64,000 nt of DNA. Origin: Phycomyces blakesleeanus NRRL 1555(-) (taxonomy: Eukaryota > Mucoromycota > Mucoromycetes > Mucorales > Phycomycetaceae). Of this stretch, positions 32,864 through 41,368 are shown in pieces. Position 1 is the stretch's first letter; each line of letters opens with the position of its first letter. The notes beneath the pieces were generated by a model. The model had not been told where the DNA came from. It ran no database searches and saw only the letters and a program-made list of their open reading frames with translations. The translations under genes and the position numbers were made by a program. The stretch lies in assembly GCF_001638985.1 (NCBI RefSeq), contig NW_017265134.1, positions 496,001-560,000 of the forward strand. Reading direction: 5' to 3'.

Positions 32864-33844
32864 TCATTTAAACCAACCGGTTAATTTATCAAGAGTACTT
32901 GAATGAGACAGTCTTTTTGTAGAGTTATTCTTACGCTTCAACCACCCTTTGAAGGTTGGTTTCCGTACACACAAAGATTCCACTGAAGATTGCGTCAATG
33001 GAGACATTTTAGATCCCAATGATCCAGAGCCACCACTGCCATTAGGTCTGTACAATCCACCTGATCGACTCAGTCCATTCGACAAGTTCATCTTATATAA
33101 TGTGTTGTCGGATTCATGGAGTATACTCAATGTAGTCGACCCATTAAGTTTACTCATCAAACTTGAGGCGCTTCTGGGATATTCATTCATCATACGCTCG
33201 GAAACCCTGTGATTACTATTACTATAATTATTTTTTGCTGTGGTATTTTTTGGAAAGCACATTGAATCCCGAAGTCGTCCAGAATCATACCCTTCTTCTT
33301 CTCCTCTTCTATCTCCATTTCCCTCTTGCTCGCCTGCTGCTGGTGTTGCTATTTTTGTCGTGTGTTTATCAAAGTACGATACTTCATTGGAAAACCCGCC
33401 GGCTCCCTTGTACTTTAGGATTTCGCGCATACCGTGTACTCCAACTGTGCGTACCTGTTCTTGAGCTTTAGAATCCAGAAATGGCAAGCACCTCAACAGG
33501 GTACACCAATGTGCATATTGGCGTCTGAGTGGGTCTTCCGGTTTTTTGTCCTGGAAAGGCTCTATTGGATCAAGCCATGGGACGTCTTTGGCCGGAACGA
33601 CATTGGAAGAACAAGGAGGTCTTTTGTGTGTGCATGAACAAGAAACCTGGAGTCGGTCTAGTAGTGCTGCATAGTGGGTAGGGACGTGGGTTGCCCAAGG
33701 ATCGAGTTCATCTGAAGGTTTGGAAATGTGAGAGTCGAGCGTGTCGATGTGTACGTTGAGACGCTTGACAAGATCTTCAAGGTCATCAAGCGTACTCTTT
33801 TTCTTTTGTTGGATTGGAAAAGGAGAGACGCTTGAGAGGCTCAT
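32864..33844 (-). CDS. Uncharacterised protein, 326 residues
   Basis: Single-exon frame with non-repetitive, varied composition. Residues 18-40 look like a short coiled coil (LDDLEDLVKRLNVHIDTLDS). Residues 45-150 are the most ordered part, with a Cys-rich patch (VSCSCTHKRPPCSS) and a Trp/aromatic region (RRQYAHWCTLLRCLPFLDS, VGVHGMREILKYKGAGGF). The C-terminal half is Ser/Gly/Asn-rich and ends in a basic segment (FKGWLKRKNNSTKRLSHS) closing with LTGWFK. No family is recognised. Local G+C rises across the frame, supporting coding. It may be a fungal regulator with a disordered tail. Confidence 0.7.
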   Translation of the reverse strand: MSLSSVSPFPIQQKKKSTLDDLEDLVKRLNVHIDTLDSHISKPSDELDPWATHVPTHYAALLDRLQVSCSCTHKRPPCSSNVVPAKDVPWLDPIEPFQDKKPEDPLRRQYAHWCTLLRCLPFLDSKAQEQVRTVGVHGMREILKYKGAGGFSNEVSYFDKHTTKIATPAAGEQEGNGDRRGEEEGYDSGRLRDSMCFPKNTTAKNNYSNSNHRVSERMMNEYPRSASSLMSKLNGSTTLSILHESDNTLYKMNLSNGLSRSGGLYRPNGSGGSGSLGSKMSPLTQSSVESLCVRKPTFKGWLKRKNNSTKRLSHSSTLDKLTGWFK

Positions 33845-34316
33845 GTTTTAGTTAGTTAATTAGATAAGATGCAAAACAAAATAAACAGAAATAATAAATA
33901 TTTAGAGATGTCATTACCGATCTATACGATCCTCTCTTGTATATATGTATATTCTACATTCTTAGGATCTTCAATAGAAATACTATGATGAATGAGTAAC
34001 AAGAAGGGACGATCTCTTGGTTCACAGTTGTAATCTCAATAAGCAGAATATCTTTATTTGCTTGTTTGTTTGTTTGCTTGCTTGTATATACGATTGAATT
34101 CATTTATATTCAATTTATATATACAAATACACACACATACACACACACACACACGCATATATATATATAGTATAAGAGACACCATTGAATTCAAAGTATA
34201 TTATACAAAATTAGAGTAAAAAAAAATACACGGTAAGTCTATTATTATTTTTGATAAAGTAAGTTATAAAGTATATCGACTATAAGTAAAAAATAAATAA
34301 AGTATATATGTATATA
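33845..34316. other. Intergenic
   Basis: AT-rich; holds tttg tandem repeats near 34060-34084 and a CA/TA microsatellite at 34128-34168. No gene is visible. Confidence 0.7.
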
Positions 34317-37300
34317 TCAATTGTCCTTTAACCACTTTGTCATTGGACTCACAGATCCTCTTGTAGAGATATCATGGTGAGTTGGTCTTTGAGTCAATTT
34401 ACGTTTCTTCTTGACAACTGGCTCATCGTCGGATGTCTTTTTGGTATTCTTTACAGGTTTGGCCTTTTTACTTGGCTGAGGTTTCTTAGCTGGGAGTGGC
34501 TTAATAAAACTTTTCCTCACATTTGGTTCATCAAACATAGGAAATTCATTTTCCTCATCAGACTCAAAAGCTTTCCCACCCAATATAGGAGAACGAAGAG
34601 GGCTCAAGGATTTTTCTTTTTCAAGAAGAATAAGATCGTCGTCTTGTGTCTCTTTATCAATGACAATTGCTGCTGCTGCTTTTTCTGCTTTTTCTTTTTC
34701 TGCTGCCGCTTTTGCTTTTGCCGCCGCCGCTGCTTCTGTTCTTGTTGTCGTTGTTGTGGAGGTAACTTCTTCTGTTGCCCTTTCTTTTCCCTTTGCGCTT
34801 TGCTTGGTGGCGGTAATGGACTTAGAAGATGGTAGTGAGCTTTTTTGCGTTGTTCGTGATGACGATTGCATGCCCTGGCCAATATTAGATGTTGTTGCTG
34901 TAGGGCCTATGCTTTCTGTCATTTTTTCTTTTCCCTTGGTGCTTCTTTTTGAAGCAACGGGTCTAGACGGTGCTGGTATTTCCACAGGGCCAAGAATAGG
35001 GCTTGGCGATTCTGACAGACGAAATGGAACATGCTGTTTTGATGGAGCAGTAGTACTTTTTGTAGGTATGTATGTAGATCTAGATATGGGTGTAGGTGTA
35101 GAGGTGAATGCCGGTGTAGGTGAAGATTTATATGCAGATGTGCGGGTGGGTGTTGGCTTAAATGTATTTTGGGATACACTAACAGCTTGTGTATTAAGTA
35201 ATACTGGGGCGGCTGGAGTAGGTTGAGCTGGGATTGGTGCTTGAGGAGTTTGGGCTAGATAGTATCGAATTTGGGACAGATATTGCTGTGCTTGTTCTTG
35301 CGCAAATGACAACTCTGCCTGGTGCAACTTCGCATCTCTTTTTCTGTATTCCTAAGTATAGTAAGATATACATTTTATATTATATTCAGCATATTTTGAC
35401 AGTATGTGCCTTGTATTCAAGCCGTAATATTCTCCTACCAGTGAGCGTTCACACTGTTCATTACAAATTTGCAATTCGGTTTTGAGGCTATTGACTTCTT
35501 CCTAAAAATTATACAAATGAGTAATTGTTTCTTTTTTATTTATTTATTTGCAAGCCTTGGCTATTTATTACCTGAAGTACTTTTACATTTGTCTGTTATA
35601 TATACATATATATCAAAAGCGATTGATAAATATTAGATAATGAATTGGTTAATTTGGGATCAAGCCAAATTAATGTAATGTAAGCTTTTTAACTTACATC
35701 CAATTCAGTGTTAGCTTGTTCTAGTGTCTCTTTTTTTACTGTCAGCTTCTTTCGAGCCTTGTTCAATTGTGTTATGATGTGCTCGAGCTCTTTTGATTTA
35801 ATTCGCTCCTTCTTCAGTTTTTCCTGTACAATTTTTGTCAGCGCCCATTTTTTTTTCCAAAACAGGAATATATTTAGATAAATATTAACTTGACTTACTG
35901 TTTTCTTTTTTGCGAGATCAGTATTTTTTTCCAGCATGTACCTTGTAGCGACTAAAATAAGCGGGTAAATAAGTAATGTACATATATCATACTGAGAAGT
36001 TACAAGTCAAACGCACCTAATTCTACTAAAGATTTTCTCTGAAACCCTTCTTGTATTGCCACTGCGGCATTAAAATCGAGGCGTGTAACATTTTCTTGCT
36101 TAATTTTTAATTCCAAGTCTTGTTTGACCTATTTAACATTACACACACGCATATATGTATTCATTTAAACGAATTGCATGGTAAGTAAGTAGGTAAAGTA
36201 AGCGTGCAGATAGATGTAACTCACCCAGTTTAATTTCTTTTCTAATAACTTGCATTTGTTTTTCCATTCTTTGCATTGATCTTCCATTTCACTTAGATCT
36301 TCTCTTGAAGCTAATAATTCTTCATTTAGATCCAATTGTGCTTTCTATACTCTGATATGTTTAGTCTCTCCAGTTATCATTCAACATTTTTTGGTATTTA
36401 TAATTCACCTCTTTTTGTGCAAGTTTACCCTGCTCTAATTCGTACAGATATTTAAAGTCTTCAACGCGGATATCTTTTTGGTTACGCATGGCGTGAAGTC
36501 GAATCTTTTGTAAGGATTTAGAGAACGAAAGCGCCTCTGTAACTTCTTCTACTTTTTTTGAGCGTTCCTAATAACAACGATTCAATTACCAATTGTTATT
36601 TTTATCGATTGACTCGATATTTTGTACAAATTCACTTACATCAAAATACATAAATGTAATACATTTGCTCTTTCCACAAAAATATTCTGATAATAGTTTG
36701 GTAAATAGATTCTTATCAATATCCATGTAGCCATCATATTCTGGGTCCACAACCACGCTGACGAGATCCTCTGTGTAAATTCGATATATAAAAGATAAAA
36801 GTATCAGTAAAGTGTCTATTGCTAGATATAGTCCTTATGTTCTTCTTTTTGCCATACTTAATTTGGAAAATGAATAATGAAAGCTATATCGAGGGGATAT
36901 TTGATTAACAGTTCCCAGAAAGTTTGGTTGCATTAAATCAGCCAAGACAATATTGCCCATAAATGATTCATCGTCCGTGAGCCGTAATTTAACAACAAAA
37001 GGAAATTTGGAACCCTTTTTAACTTCATTCCACATTTCGTCTGTATCTTGAATTCTAATTAACATATGGTCTAAACCATCCTCAAGTACGTAGGATTCTT
37101 TTATATATATAAAATACAAAGAAATACTTTAGATTAATAATTGTATTATTTTTTTGATTAATTAAATGAAAAAAAGACCGGTTGAAGAGGATGCTTAAAA
37201 AAGAAGTACACTTACTTTCGTATCTTTGAGAATTACTAATGTCGTAGCAATAATCGTCCGTTATTCCAAGGTACCTGTGATTACAAAACTTTGTTAATTA

Positions 37301-38149
37301 TGCAACAATTCTTCTTTAATATATATTATCTTTAAAAATACGCACGCATAATCCAATTTGATTGTATTGATTTGACGTTCTTCTCTATTTCTGTTGGCTT
37401 TTTCCAATTCTGTCTTTAGACACAGTACGATCGATTCCATCATTTCCATTCTATATATATATATATATTGGATATCAATAAGAAGGTTAAAAAAGTATTT
37501 GTAACAATTACCTGTGCTCAAATGGATCCTCGACACTTTATTTGAGATCATAGTAATACACACCCATATTAATAGTTAGCACAAATTATGCATATACACA
37601 TAAATATTGCGCTTGCTCACCCAACACTCATGAAAACAGCTGCCGCATTGAATCCTTGTCAAAATAAAATAAAATAAAAACGTATTATTTTATTTATTTA
37701 CTTATTGTTGTTGCCGCTGCTTTTGCATTATTAAATTATTGGTATTATTACCATCTAGAGCAAGATTAACAAGTTCTGCTGCTTGGATGCGACATTCACT
37801 AACTGGTGTACTGGCATGCAAGCATCGCGTAAATGTATAACGTGTTCTACAATCATGTCTAATTAGGACTGGCTGTGGGCAATTCACATGTATGTATATT
37901 TTTTTTAAAAATATTATTAATCGTACTGTTTGCCATGGACATTGTTATCTATGGACGGGGGGGAACTCTCAGCTACTTCGTGTGTAATGTGGAAAAGGAA
38001 CATGAATCTAATTGCTGTAGACTACCTTGACTACTATCAGCGACAATTAGGGAATCATTTCCTCCGACAGTAAGGTGTAGAGTGTCTTTTGGATCGTTTA
38101 GGCTTCTTGGATTCACCAATGCGACAACCTCAAGAGAAGATATATTCAT
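34317..38149 (-). CDS. Kinesin-like protein with degenerate, ATP-loop-less motor domain plus coiled coil
   Basis: Sixteen minus-strand exons keep one frame for 840 residues: 38149-38026, 37868-37752, 37654-37621, 37535-37512, 37450-37346, 37274-37216, 37097-36858, 36770-36640, 36567-36409, 36344-36225, 36128-36017, 35951-35899, 35823-35698, 35592-35572, 35501-35439 and 35351-34317. Residues 1-301 follow kinesin motor order. LEVVALVNPRS fits strand 1. RYTFTRCLHASTPVSE fits YTFDxVF. LVNLALDGFNAAAVF fits LDGYNATIFAYG. GNIVLADLMQ fits LVDLAGSE. LFTKLLSEYFCGKSKCITF fits LTRLLQDSLGGNSKT. ALSFSKSLQKIR fits TLRFAERAKKI. The P-loop GQTGSGKT is replaced by VGVEDPFE, so ATP binding is unlikely. Residues 302-495 are coiled coil; 496-840 a Pro/Ser/Thr-rich then Lys-rich tail. 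Compare Vik1/Cik1, VAB-8 and KIF26. The first splice pair is the least certain. Confidence 0.82.
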
Positions 38150-38777
38150 TATCAATGCTTGCAATCACTATACTAGATTGCTTTACAAGGAAAGTCTCGA
38201 GTTTCTTTTTTTAAAAAAAATAATTGTTTAAAAAACACACCGTTTCAATTAAAACCCAATTCAATGTAAAATTAAACGCCGTGACTTTTCATTTATCAAT
38301 GAAGGATGATCATACCAAGCACAGACACAAGAAAGGCGTAACATGATAATATACAATACATAACACTATTGGTAATTATGAAGATAATATAATTACACTA
38401 AATTATATGAATATACTTGATATTTCTACTCAACTAAAGGCTCAAAAGGAGGAGCAACTCACTGCTGCTGTTTCTTCTGCTTAATTTTTTCTGCGTATGT
38501 AATATATATTTTTAATTATGAATGTTGTTGAAAAGATGGTATCATTTAAATATTTTAAAGAAAAAAAATATATTATATATCCGGTAGTGTACTCTACTTG
38601 GGTATGTACATACTTGAAGTAAAGAAGTAGCTGAGAAGTAAAGGTTTATAGCTTGAAGTACAGAGTTTTGTCCGGTTTCACAAATAAATAAAGCGATGTA
38701 GATTTTGGCTGTGTAAAGCACTTTTTATTTAAAAAAAAAAAGAGATAAAAATAATAAATATATACATTTGGGCTTCC
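38150..38777. other. Intergenic, promoter region of the kinesin-like gene
   Basis: FAO1 ends and the kinesin-like gene begins on the same strand. The segment is AT-rich with poly-A/T at 38207-38220 and 38720-38740. No gene is visible. Confidence 0.65.
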
Positions 38778-41368
38778 TTAAGCAAGCTTAATTGACTTGA
38801 CAATTGAATCAGATACATGGACAGAAATGGCTTCTGTTGTGACCATGGGATTGACACCACTTGCAGTTGGGAAAAGAGATGCGTCACAAACATACAAATC
38901 CTTGATTTCCCAGGTCTCACCAGTTGGTTGAGTGACAGAGGTGTCAGGAGAAACACCCATTCGGCTACACATAAATTGAATAGATATTGTATTTAGTTTT
39001 TCAGACTATCCATGAATAAAAGAAAACCGATTGAACTGTATAATTGACTTACCATGTTCCCAGCTGGTGAGCAGAGAAGTAATTCATAGCGTTATCTGGC
39101 ATTCCGTTCTTATTCAAAGCATCAATCCATTGGAGGAATCTTGGGTTATTCACTTCAGTAGGTTCATTCTTTTCGAATATAAAAGGCTTCATGCCAAAGA
39201 AGCCAGTATGGATCTCTCTAGCACCAGCAGCGACCAAAATCATAGCCGATCTCTCTTCTGCCTTGATAATCGATATTTTGTCTTGGTCAGATAACTTGTA
39301 GTTGACGATAACCTTTCCATCTTTGGTGTGCTCTACACTTCCCACAGAATCCTTGTCACGGACAAGAGCAATGATGGATGATGACTGTCTAAATCTGAGC
39401 ATTCTTTCTTTGTGTTCCTTTCCTCCTTGCCATGGGATGCCAAAGATGTACATATCTGTGGTGTGATGAGGAACCTCAAGCTTAGATCCATAATTTTCAC
39501 CATCTAGGTTTTCAAGACTGTTGCTCAGCTATAGATAAAGAACTTCTAGTTATTATCGACGCCTTATGTTCAACCTTGTTTATATTCAATATTCCATTTA
39601 TATTACTTACAGCAGTCATAAGAGATCCTTCAAAAGGATTAACTTGACGATCTTCAAACAAACCATAGATCACAGTTACAGGATGAAGACGAAGATGCTT
39701 TCCAATATTTTTGTTCTTCAGTCCGCTTCTTGAAAGGATACCAGGAGAATGCAATGATCCAGCAGACACTACTACTCGCGATGCATTGAGAGAGATTGGT
39801 GTATCTGATCCATTGATCTTAAACTCTACACCGGTGGCCTTTCCATCGGTAATGATGACCCGGCTCACAGTGGCTTGATCAACAAAACGGGCGTTGTTGG
39901 CAGCAGCAATACGGAGCCATGAGTTTGATGTACCATTCTTAATGCCATCCTTGCATCCAGTTAGACACCATCCACACTCATGTGATAATCCACCTGTGTT
40001 TTGGGGGATATCCTCAATGTGACATCCGAGTTTTCTATAGAGCTTAGTCAACAAAAAAAATTCATGTAATTTGTCTGAAGCCTTACTTGCAACCATCCAC
40101 AAAAATTTGATTAGGTTCATTGTGTTTGATTCCAGATGTTTCAGCACCGATCCTTTTATAAACCTTGTCCAAATCTTCGGAAAACTATATTTAAGAAGTC
40201 AATAATCATATTTGTGGCTCCTCCTATTTTTATTTATTCAACTAATAATTACCTTTGACGATGTAAAGTGAGTCAAGCCCAATTTTGCCCATTCTTCACG
40301 TACAAAATGCTGAGGCTATTTTTTTTAAAAAAAAAAAAGATCCCCAAAAAAACTAATCAGATCAAAGAGAATTGTGCAACTGCGGCTTTACGCGTTTACC
40401 TTTAAGCTTGCCAAGAAATTTACTGTGGTTGCACCGCCAAAGGTACTACCTGCAAGAATGCTAAGTTCTCCTTTGCGAGAGGCAAAACTTCCACCTTGAA
40501 GGTATAAGTTTTTGTAGGCAGTTGGTACGTCGGAAGTGAATTCACTTTCATGATAGTATTTTCCTTTCTCAATCACAAGGACTGATAAACCTGCTTGAGA
40601 CAGCTCAGCAGCACATACACCTAAAGTTTAAATAAACAAACAAATAAGAATTATTTTCTTGTGCGAGCATCTATAACAATAATGTATTTTTTTTTAACTG
40701 AAATTCACATTACCTCCTCCTGCTCCACTTCCGATGACAATCGCATCAAACTTCAAAGCAGGGTCTCGTAGCTCTTTTTCTGTCATGAACTTGTATCTGT
40801 CGCGGACAATGCAGGGAACATAACCTGGCGCGCTTCTTATAGGATCCTGGCCAGGGTAACCCATTGCAGCTTGATGAGGACTGTCCGACATGTTGTAGGC
40901 AGCACTCAAAATTGCTGTAGAGAAAGTTTTGAAGATACCGACAAGCTGGGGGTTATCTGAGAATTTCCAAGAAAGGCAGACCTCTGTTCTTTGCTCATGG
41001 CTCAAGTCTTCAAATTTGACAGCCTTTCCAGTCAAGCTTTTTGTGCCTTCTGGAGTACCAAGAACATCAAGAAGACCAAATACGCCATCGAGATCCTCTG
41101 GTAGAACTTTAACCGACATAAATTGAAGGAAAGACTCATAGACACCAGGAGTGGACAGACCAAGGTCAGAGATTACATCAATATCTTTCTGAGTGCAGGT
41201 TACACTGGGAATTTCAGACAAGTTCTTCTTTAAAGACTCCTTCTCTTCGGGGGTCAGAGGTGCTAAGATGGTACTGAGAATTGCCTTGAGGGTCTTTTCT
41301 TGGTTTATGCTGATCTTTGATCCAAAATAGCATGAGTTTGCCTGGTTTGTAGCCGAAGAAATTGTCAT
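38778..41368 (-). CDS. FAO1: Long-chain (fatty) alcohol oxidase, GMC flavoprotein
   Basis: Seven minus-strand exons give 707 residues, the usual size: 41368-40714, 40620-40400, 40315-40253, 40184-40087, 40034-39611, 39528-39053 and 38964-38778. The enzyme oxidises long-chain alcohols to aldehydes with O2 and FAD, in alkane/fatty alcohol and omega-oxidation pathways. The FAD dinucleotide motif GSGAGGG is split by intron 1 near residue 218 and followed by VLVIEKGKYY. The family's ECGWCLTGCKDGIKNGT block and AGSLHSPGIL (GMC signature 2) are present. HQLGTCRMG and an FPTASGVNP-type segment close the active-site domain near residues 640-690. The C terminus, SIKLA, is not a standard peroxisomal signal. 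Intron 4 is 52 nt. Frame and motifs continue across all junctions. Confidence 0.94.

Follow-up and report, generated by a model that had tools for sequence, protein, structure and literature searches.

A gene on the minus strand (34317..38149) of the window, a 64,000-nucleotide stretch of the Phycomyces blakesleeanus genome, is best explained as encoding a non-catalytic, kinesin-14-derived head at the N-terminus, followed by a coiled coil and a basic tail, in a protein that would serve in the nucleus or at the spindle as a dimeric adaptor or tether. We put the probability of this reading at about 0.6. Its parts differ in strength. The sequence supports an intact, conserved gene with this order of head, predicted coiled coil and basic tail. 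The tethering mechanism, for which we infer dimerisation, location and function, is held at somewhat under even odds. Beyond the earlier note on this DNA, the analysis adds the kinesin-14 origin, a paralog in the same genome that shares the loss of the ATP-binding loop, and a relative in P. nitens.

Gene model and protein architecture

Sixteen exons running from 38149 to 34317 on the minus strand form one frame of 840 amino acids plus a stop, as the earlier note had proposed, and all 15 introns (61–157 nt) are GT-AG. A 424 aa GenBank model from P. blakesleeanus (P0002, ‘hypothetical protein’) is letter-for-letter identical to residues 101–496 and therefore shares the junctions found here between exon 5 and exon 15. 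Its start is late, and it runs into the last intron. Exons 1–4 are supported by the corresponding exons of the paralog, not by P0002. All four GenBank models found (P0001–P0004) are truncated hypothetical proteins, meaning that automatic annotation overlooked this case. AlphaFold predictions on truncated GenBank versions are of low confidence (mean pLDDT 49 and 31). P0002 bears the precomputed Pfam label PF28175.1; if that label names this protein family, the claim of novelty made below shrinks.

The head (residues 1 to about 306, exons 1–9, 36485..38149, minus strand) is kinesin-14-like and has no nucleotide pocket. Its start lies near the position of strand 1 in kinesin-14 heads, and no stalk or neck precedes it. 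Upstream exons encoding a stalk were considered and set aside: about 630 bases lie between the start and the end of the next same-strand gene, and the paralog and its two GenBank models have the same start (MNIFSL). The upstream neighbour at 39512-40198 (minus strand) is a GMC oxidoreductase (PF00732).

Within the head, the five kinesin landmark strings listed earlier recur in order at residues 52, 77, 202, 256 and 290 of the translation. Exon 2 (37752..37868, minus strand; YTFTRC to LVNLALD) matches the part of kinesin-14 just ahead of the P-loop. The site of the missing P-loop falls in exons 3 and 4 (34 and 24 nt; 37512..37654, minus strand), which read GFNAAAVFMSVG-VEDPFEHR. Exons 7 and 8 (36640..37097, minus strand; GNIVLADL and LFTKLLSEYFCGKSK) hold relics of the switch I and switch II regions, helix 4 and helix 5, all named by alignment to kinesin-14.

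A coiled coil is predicted at about residues 309–530 (35250..36477, minus strand) from proline absence and heptad periodicity, consistent with the order of N-terminal head and coil described before. Proline is absent across windows covering residues 301–531. The heptad periodicity is significant only in some windows; in those starting at residues 413–476, no more than 3% of shuffles match it. The AlphaFold model of a truncated GenBank protein has two long helices in the coil region, predicted with low confidence. By composition, residues 531–840 (34317..35249, minus strand) form the long, low-complexity basic tail that had been reported, with 51 K+R against 30 D+E and 12 S/T-P sites. Near its end stands a nuclear-signal-like KKKRK (residues 810–814, 34398..34412, minus strand). 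The head has a calculated pI of 5.1 and the remainder of the protein one of 9.9 (6.9 and 9.9 in the paralog).

Nucleotide pocket and microtubule face

The ATP-binding loop is lost, as the earlier note had claimed. GxxxxGK[ST] is absent from every minus-strand frame of 34300-38200, introns included, and a hidden P-loop exon is thereby excluded. The loop had been described as replaced by VGVEDPFE. The loss stands but the replacement does not: in pairwise alignment with the genome's kinesin-14, GQTG aligns to MSVG and the six residues after GQTG (SGKTYT) are missing; most of the P-loop has therefore been removed rather than exchanged. At the switch I site, the same alignment places WNEVKKGSKFP opposite TNMNERSSRSH; SSRSH is gone, in line with the reported lack of NxxSSRSH. 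Switch II was said to lack the DLAGSE pattern, which is correct for AGSE but not for D-L, which is retained (D208 L209) and invariant in three of three sequences. The window protein therefore carries none of the kinesin hallmarks (P-loop GxxxxGK[ST], switch I SSRSH, switch II DLAGSE) intact.

As a control, 22 kinesin loci were rebuilt from the same genome by spliced profile alignment, an inventory that is a lower bound; the P-loop is kept in all 22 and both switches in 21. The exception (L039, G000:C28:378800-382300) is a third kinesin-1-like copy with GQRGFGKT and a damaged switch I, in which switch II was not found; it looks like a decaying or broken kinesin-1 duplicate. Three other kinesin loci of this mould (L020, L021 and L031; ATCFAYGQTGSGKT, FIDLAGSERGADRG) resemble kinesin-13.

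With no P-loop, no switch I SSRSH and no switch II AGSE, the head should be incapable of using ATP by the kinesin mechanism, and with no nucleotide site it should not cycle. The PYRxSKLT contact of kinesin-14 is also lost when the window head is aligned to the genome's kinesin-14. In the segment from helix 4 to helix 5, basic and acidic residues number 4 and 7 in the window copy, 3 and 6 in P. nitens, 5 and 4 in the paralog, and 4 and 2 in kinesin-14. The lost contact and the acidic segment argue against ordinary microtubule binding by the window copy. With that contact gone, and with this face acidic in both the window copy and P. nitens though not in the paralog, the head may serve for docking and not as a foothold.

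An alternative is an adaptor in which the dead head is a protein–protein module no longer in contact with microtubules and the coil and tail give the function. The model for this is plant KAC1 and KAC2, whose motor domains are described, in the portion of PMC3402901 available to us, as kinesin-14-like and without microtubule binding. The missing contact residues and the acidity of the window copy are in its favour. However, the paralog is not acidic there, the window copy matches kinesin-14 best in the very third of the head that spans helix 4 to helix 6, and KAC acts on chloroplasts, which are absent in this mould. We consider an adaptor of this kind possible but unlikely.

Ancestry, paralog and constraint

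On the sequence comparisons, the kinesin signal in the window protein is remote but specific. A PDB profile search with the window gene, the paralog and the P. nitens relative returned 27 sequences at E<=10, 25 of them kinesins. The best 19 were kinesin-14 (Kar3, Ncd and KCBP; best E 2.3e-6), and represent a few proteins entered repeatedly. With a two-sequence profile, Ncd and Kar3 occupied the first 16 of 20 places. In these counts AGR253Wp is a Kar3 and 1sdm is KCBP; KCBP is a kinesin-14.

The P. blakesleeanus genome compared comprises 53.5 Mb in 60 contigs. Among its 22 kinesins, Smith-Waterman scores were highest for the kinesin-14 (L018), at 80 (z 9.7) for the window copy and 71 (z 8.2) for the paralog; the next-best raw scores, over 22 kinesin rows each, were 52 and 40. 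None of 200 shuffles matched the L018 score for either copy, and the same was true of the window copy against L023 (score 50). In profile–profile comparison, L018 gave P 1e-5 over 238 columns, and the eight other kinesin groups of the genome scored within or near the range of 40 shuffles. The 20 kinesins without L018 and L039, when pooled, scored 29.5, where the highest shuffle gave 22.2, and a 21-kinesin alignment scored 35.6, where the highest gave 24.4 (0 of 200 column shuffles matching). In both copies L018 was the best match to the N-terminal and to the C-terminal third of the head; in the window copy the C-terminal third matched it most strongly.

In a tree, the window gene and paralog join L018 with moderate support (83/82), on long branches and at a fork left open. 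Among kinesins the head is thus closest to kinesin-14 heads, and its homology to the superfamily is remote, with no kinesin-14 match in the middle third (residues 101–200). The PDB profile, own-genome and profile–profile comparisons agree on kinesin-14, which upholds the kinesin ancestry first suggested from motifs. We are highly confident that this is a kinesin-14-derived, non-catalytic N-terminal head. A kinesin-6 or kinesin-8 origin, raised by motifs and a weak single-sequence match to 7tr1, was rejected, as the profile and subfamily tests lead to kinesin-14.

That the nearest sequence is the genome's own kinesin-14 favours a further alternative, in which the protein pairs with the one catalytic kinesin-14 as a heterodimer and supplies a passive second head, as Vik1 and Cik1 do. 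The numbers agree: one kinesin-14 was found here (lower-bound search) beside two dead kinesin-14-like paralogs, and budding yeast, according to the available portions of PMC4338441 and PMC8950801, has one Kar3 with Vik1 and Cik1. The geometry does not. The window head precedes its coil, whereas the L018 motor follows its stalk and neck (LKGNIRVFCRVRPP), so a parallel coil would put the heads at opposite ends; the reversed domain order argues against a side-by-side pair of heads. Vik1-named matches are also absent from both PDB profile-search lists. We think this partnership improbable.

Several results on ancestry were weak or negative. Pfam does not call the kinesin domain (PF00225) in the window copy or the paralog, and single-sequence PDB searches gave E of 0.17 and 0.04. 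In a spliced gene search with the 21-kinesin profile, neither copy (18.3 and 19.4 bits) scored higher than the background, whose maximum over 48 tiles was 24.5. With the kinesin-14 profile, the paralog (26.7) exceeded all 48 tiles (21.9) and the window gene (21.6) did not; the best stretch of the latter, 37839-37744, overlaps exon 2 and is likewise not above background. The part of the P. nitens protein corresponding to the unmatched middle third of the head prefers L023, and the first third of the window copy prefers L018 only narrowly over L024 (52 vs 49). An intron in the DG(Y/F)N codon of the head shares its place and phase with L019, L025 and L026; with so many introns one such coincidence is likely, and we give it no weight. 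The weak single-sequence scores, the silence of Pfam and the negative pan-kinesin gene search are what an unrelated coiled-coil protein with a chance resemblance would produce. But one subfamily is favoured by two separate thirds of the head, two paralogs and two kinds of search, and shuffles fail to reproduce the kinesin-14 signal, which leaves chance resemblance very improbable.

The paralog lies on contig C21 and has 18 exons, 778 residues and one GC donor, in the GC-AG intron after its exon 9. It too has no P-loop. Its head exons are the same sizes as those of the window gene (34, 24, 105, 59 and 131 nt), with an extra intron (L017 6315-6166) dividing the counterpart of exon 2, and it has RKKRK near the C-terminus. 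The two heads are 39% identical, the coils 23% and the tails 19%. Among head codons, second positions differ in 0.37 and third positions in 0.68, and synonymous sites are saturated. The P. nitens protein covers 59% of the query at 77% identity; its model stops short of the P-loop site.

Because the paralog is also without a P-loop, the loss most likely predates an old duplication. The head is the best-conserved part of the protein, so decay is unlikely and the head has apparently been retained since. A decaying kinesin-14 pseudogene would explain why all three catalytic motifs are gone and Pfam makes no call, but it is hardly credible beside an open frame across 16 exons, a second intact copy, the close P. 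nitens relative and constraint that is strongest in the head.

The downstream neighbour of the window gene (32864..33847, minus strand) has a relative downstream of the paralog (L017 388-1527, minus strand; E 3e-11, 26% over 153 aa), so that a duplicated gene stands beside both dead-kinesin genes. The duplicated neighbour has no Pfam match over its cut-off. Together the window gene and this neighbour mark a two-gene duplicated block. No further window frame of at least 40 residues matches the compared 69 kb of C21 at E 1e-5. As synteny with C21 is limited to the next gene, a whole-genome duplication is only a possible source of the pair; genome duplication in Mucoromycota is reported in the available portion of a review (PMC10386755). 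Protein database searches matched only Phycomyces. Two of them missed a known relative within the length range (P0003), so these searches are no evidence of absence elsewhere.

Proposed role and known systems

Under the preferred reading of a head-first tether, the coiled coil would make the protein a dimer and the C-terminal basic motif would allow nuclear entry. The dead head would offer a binding surface that does not depend on nucleotide, serving either as a foothold on microtubules or for docking another protein, and the tail would bind a second partner. The protein could then connect microtubules of the spindle or nucleus with some other structure, and would be a tether and not a motor.

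A broader proposal is slightly more tentative than this mechanism. Phycomyces at least, or Mucorales, may have evolved a dead kinesin-14 pair beside a single active kinesin-14, independently of yeast. The head would have been cut at the neck–motor junction and placed before a new coiled coil and nuclear tail, giving an undescribed class of nuclear microtubule-associated pseudo-motor that acts as a head-first tether. No such protein appears in a title or abstract opening among the best-ranked matches from the Mucoromycota literature. Budding yeast and plants already provide examples of dead kinesin-14-type heads with a function. If the proposal is true, Phycomyces would add a fungal case that arose independently, with the domain order reversed and an ancient duplication still kept. 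It would show that the kinesin-14 head can be turned into a passive module repeatedly, and would provide a system for testing which head functions outlast loss of the ATP site.

Smy1, Costal-2, VAB-8 and KIF26 belong outside kinesin-14, and the window head scores with other kinesin groups within or near shuffles. KIF26, like the other three, is a kinesin relative that is divergent or thought to act without motor activity, which is the likeness to the window protein. Smy1, Cos2 and VAB-8 are presented as such relatives in the available portion of PMC2867816.

Fungal kinesin-14 (Kar3 and KlpA; here L018 on contig C19) is the nearest sequence among the 22 kinesin loci. It differs in having a P-loop, both switches and the order stalk, neck, motor. 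The window protein departs from the usual kinesin-14 order of fungi and animals, in which a C-terminal head follows stalk and neck.

Vik1 and Cik1 of yeast share with the Phycomyces pair a motor homology domain without an ATP site, a coiled coil, and two paralogs beside one catalytic kinesin-14. In Vik1 and Cik1 the head lies C-terminal, after the coiled coil, and in Phycomyces it is N-terminal; the window protein does not have their order of coiled coil before motor homology domain. The borders of Cik1/Vik1 constructs agree with a C-terminal head in the portion of PMC4338441 available, which also reports that the motor homology domains of Cik1 and Vik1 bind microtubules but not ATP and that the Cik1 head is a ‘foothold’ for Kar3. 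A non-catalytic head can therefore be functional.

The kinesin-14-like head of KAC1 and KAC2 likewise does not function as a motor on microtubules. Their head is N-terminal and the coiled coil comes next, as in the window protein. They differ as plant proteins that act on chloroplasts through actin. The Phycomyces head is probably a structural relic put to new use, a variant of the yeast and plant cases.
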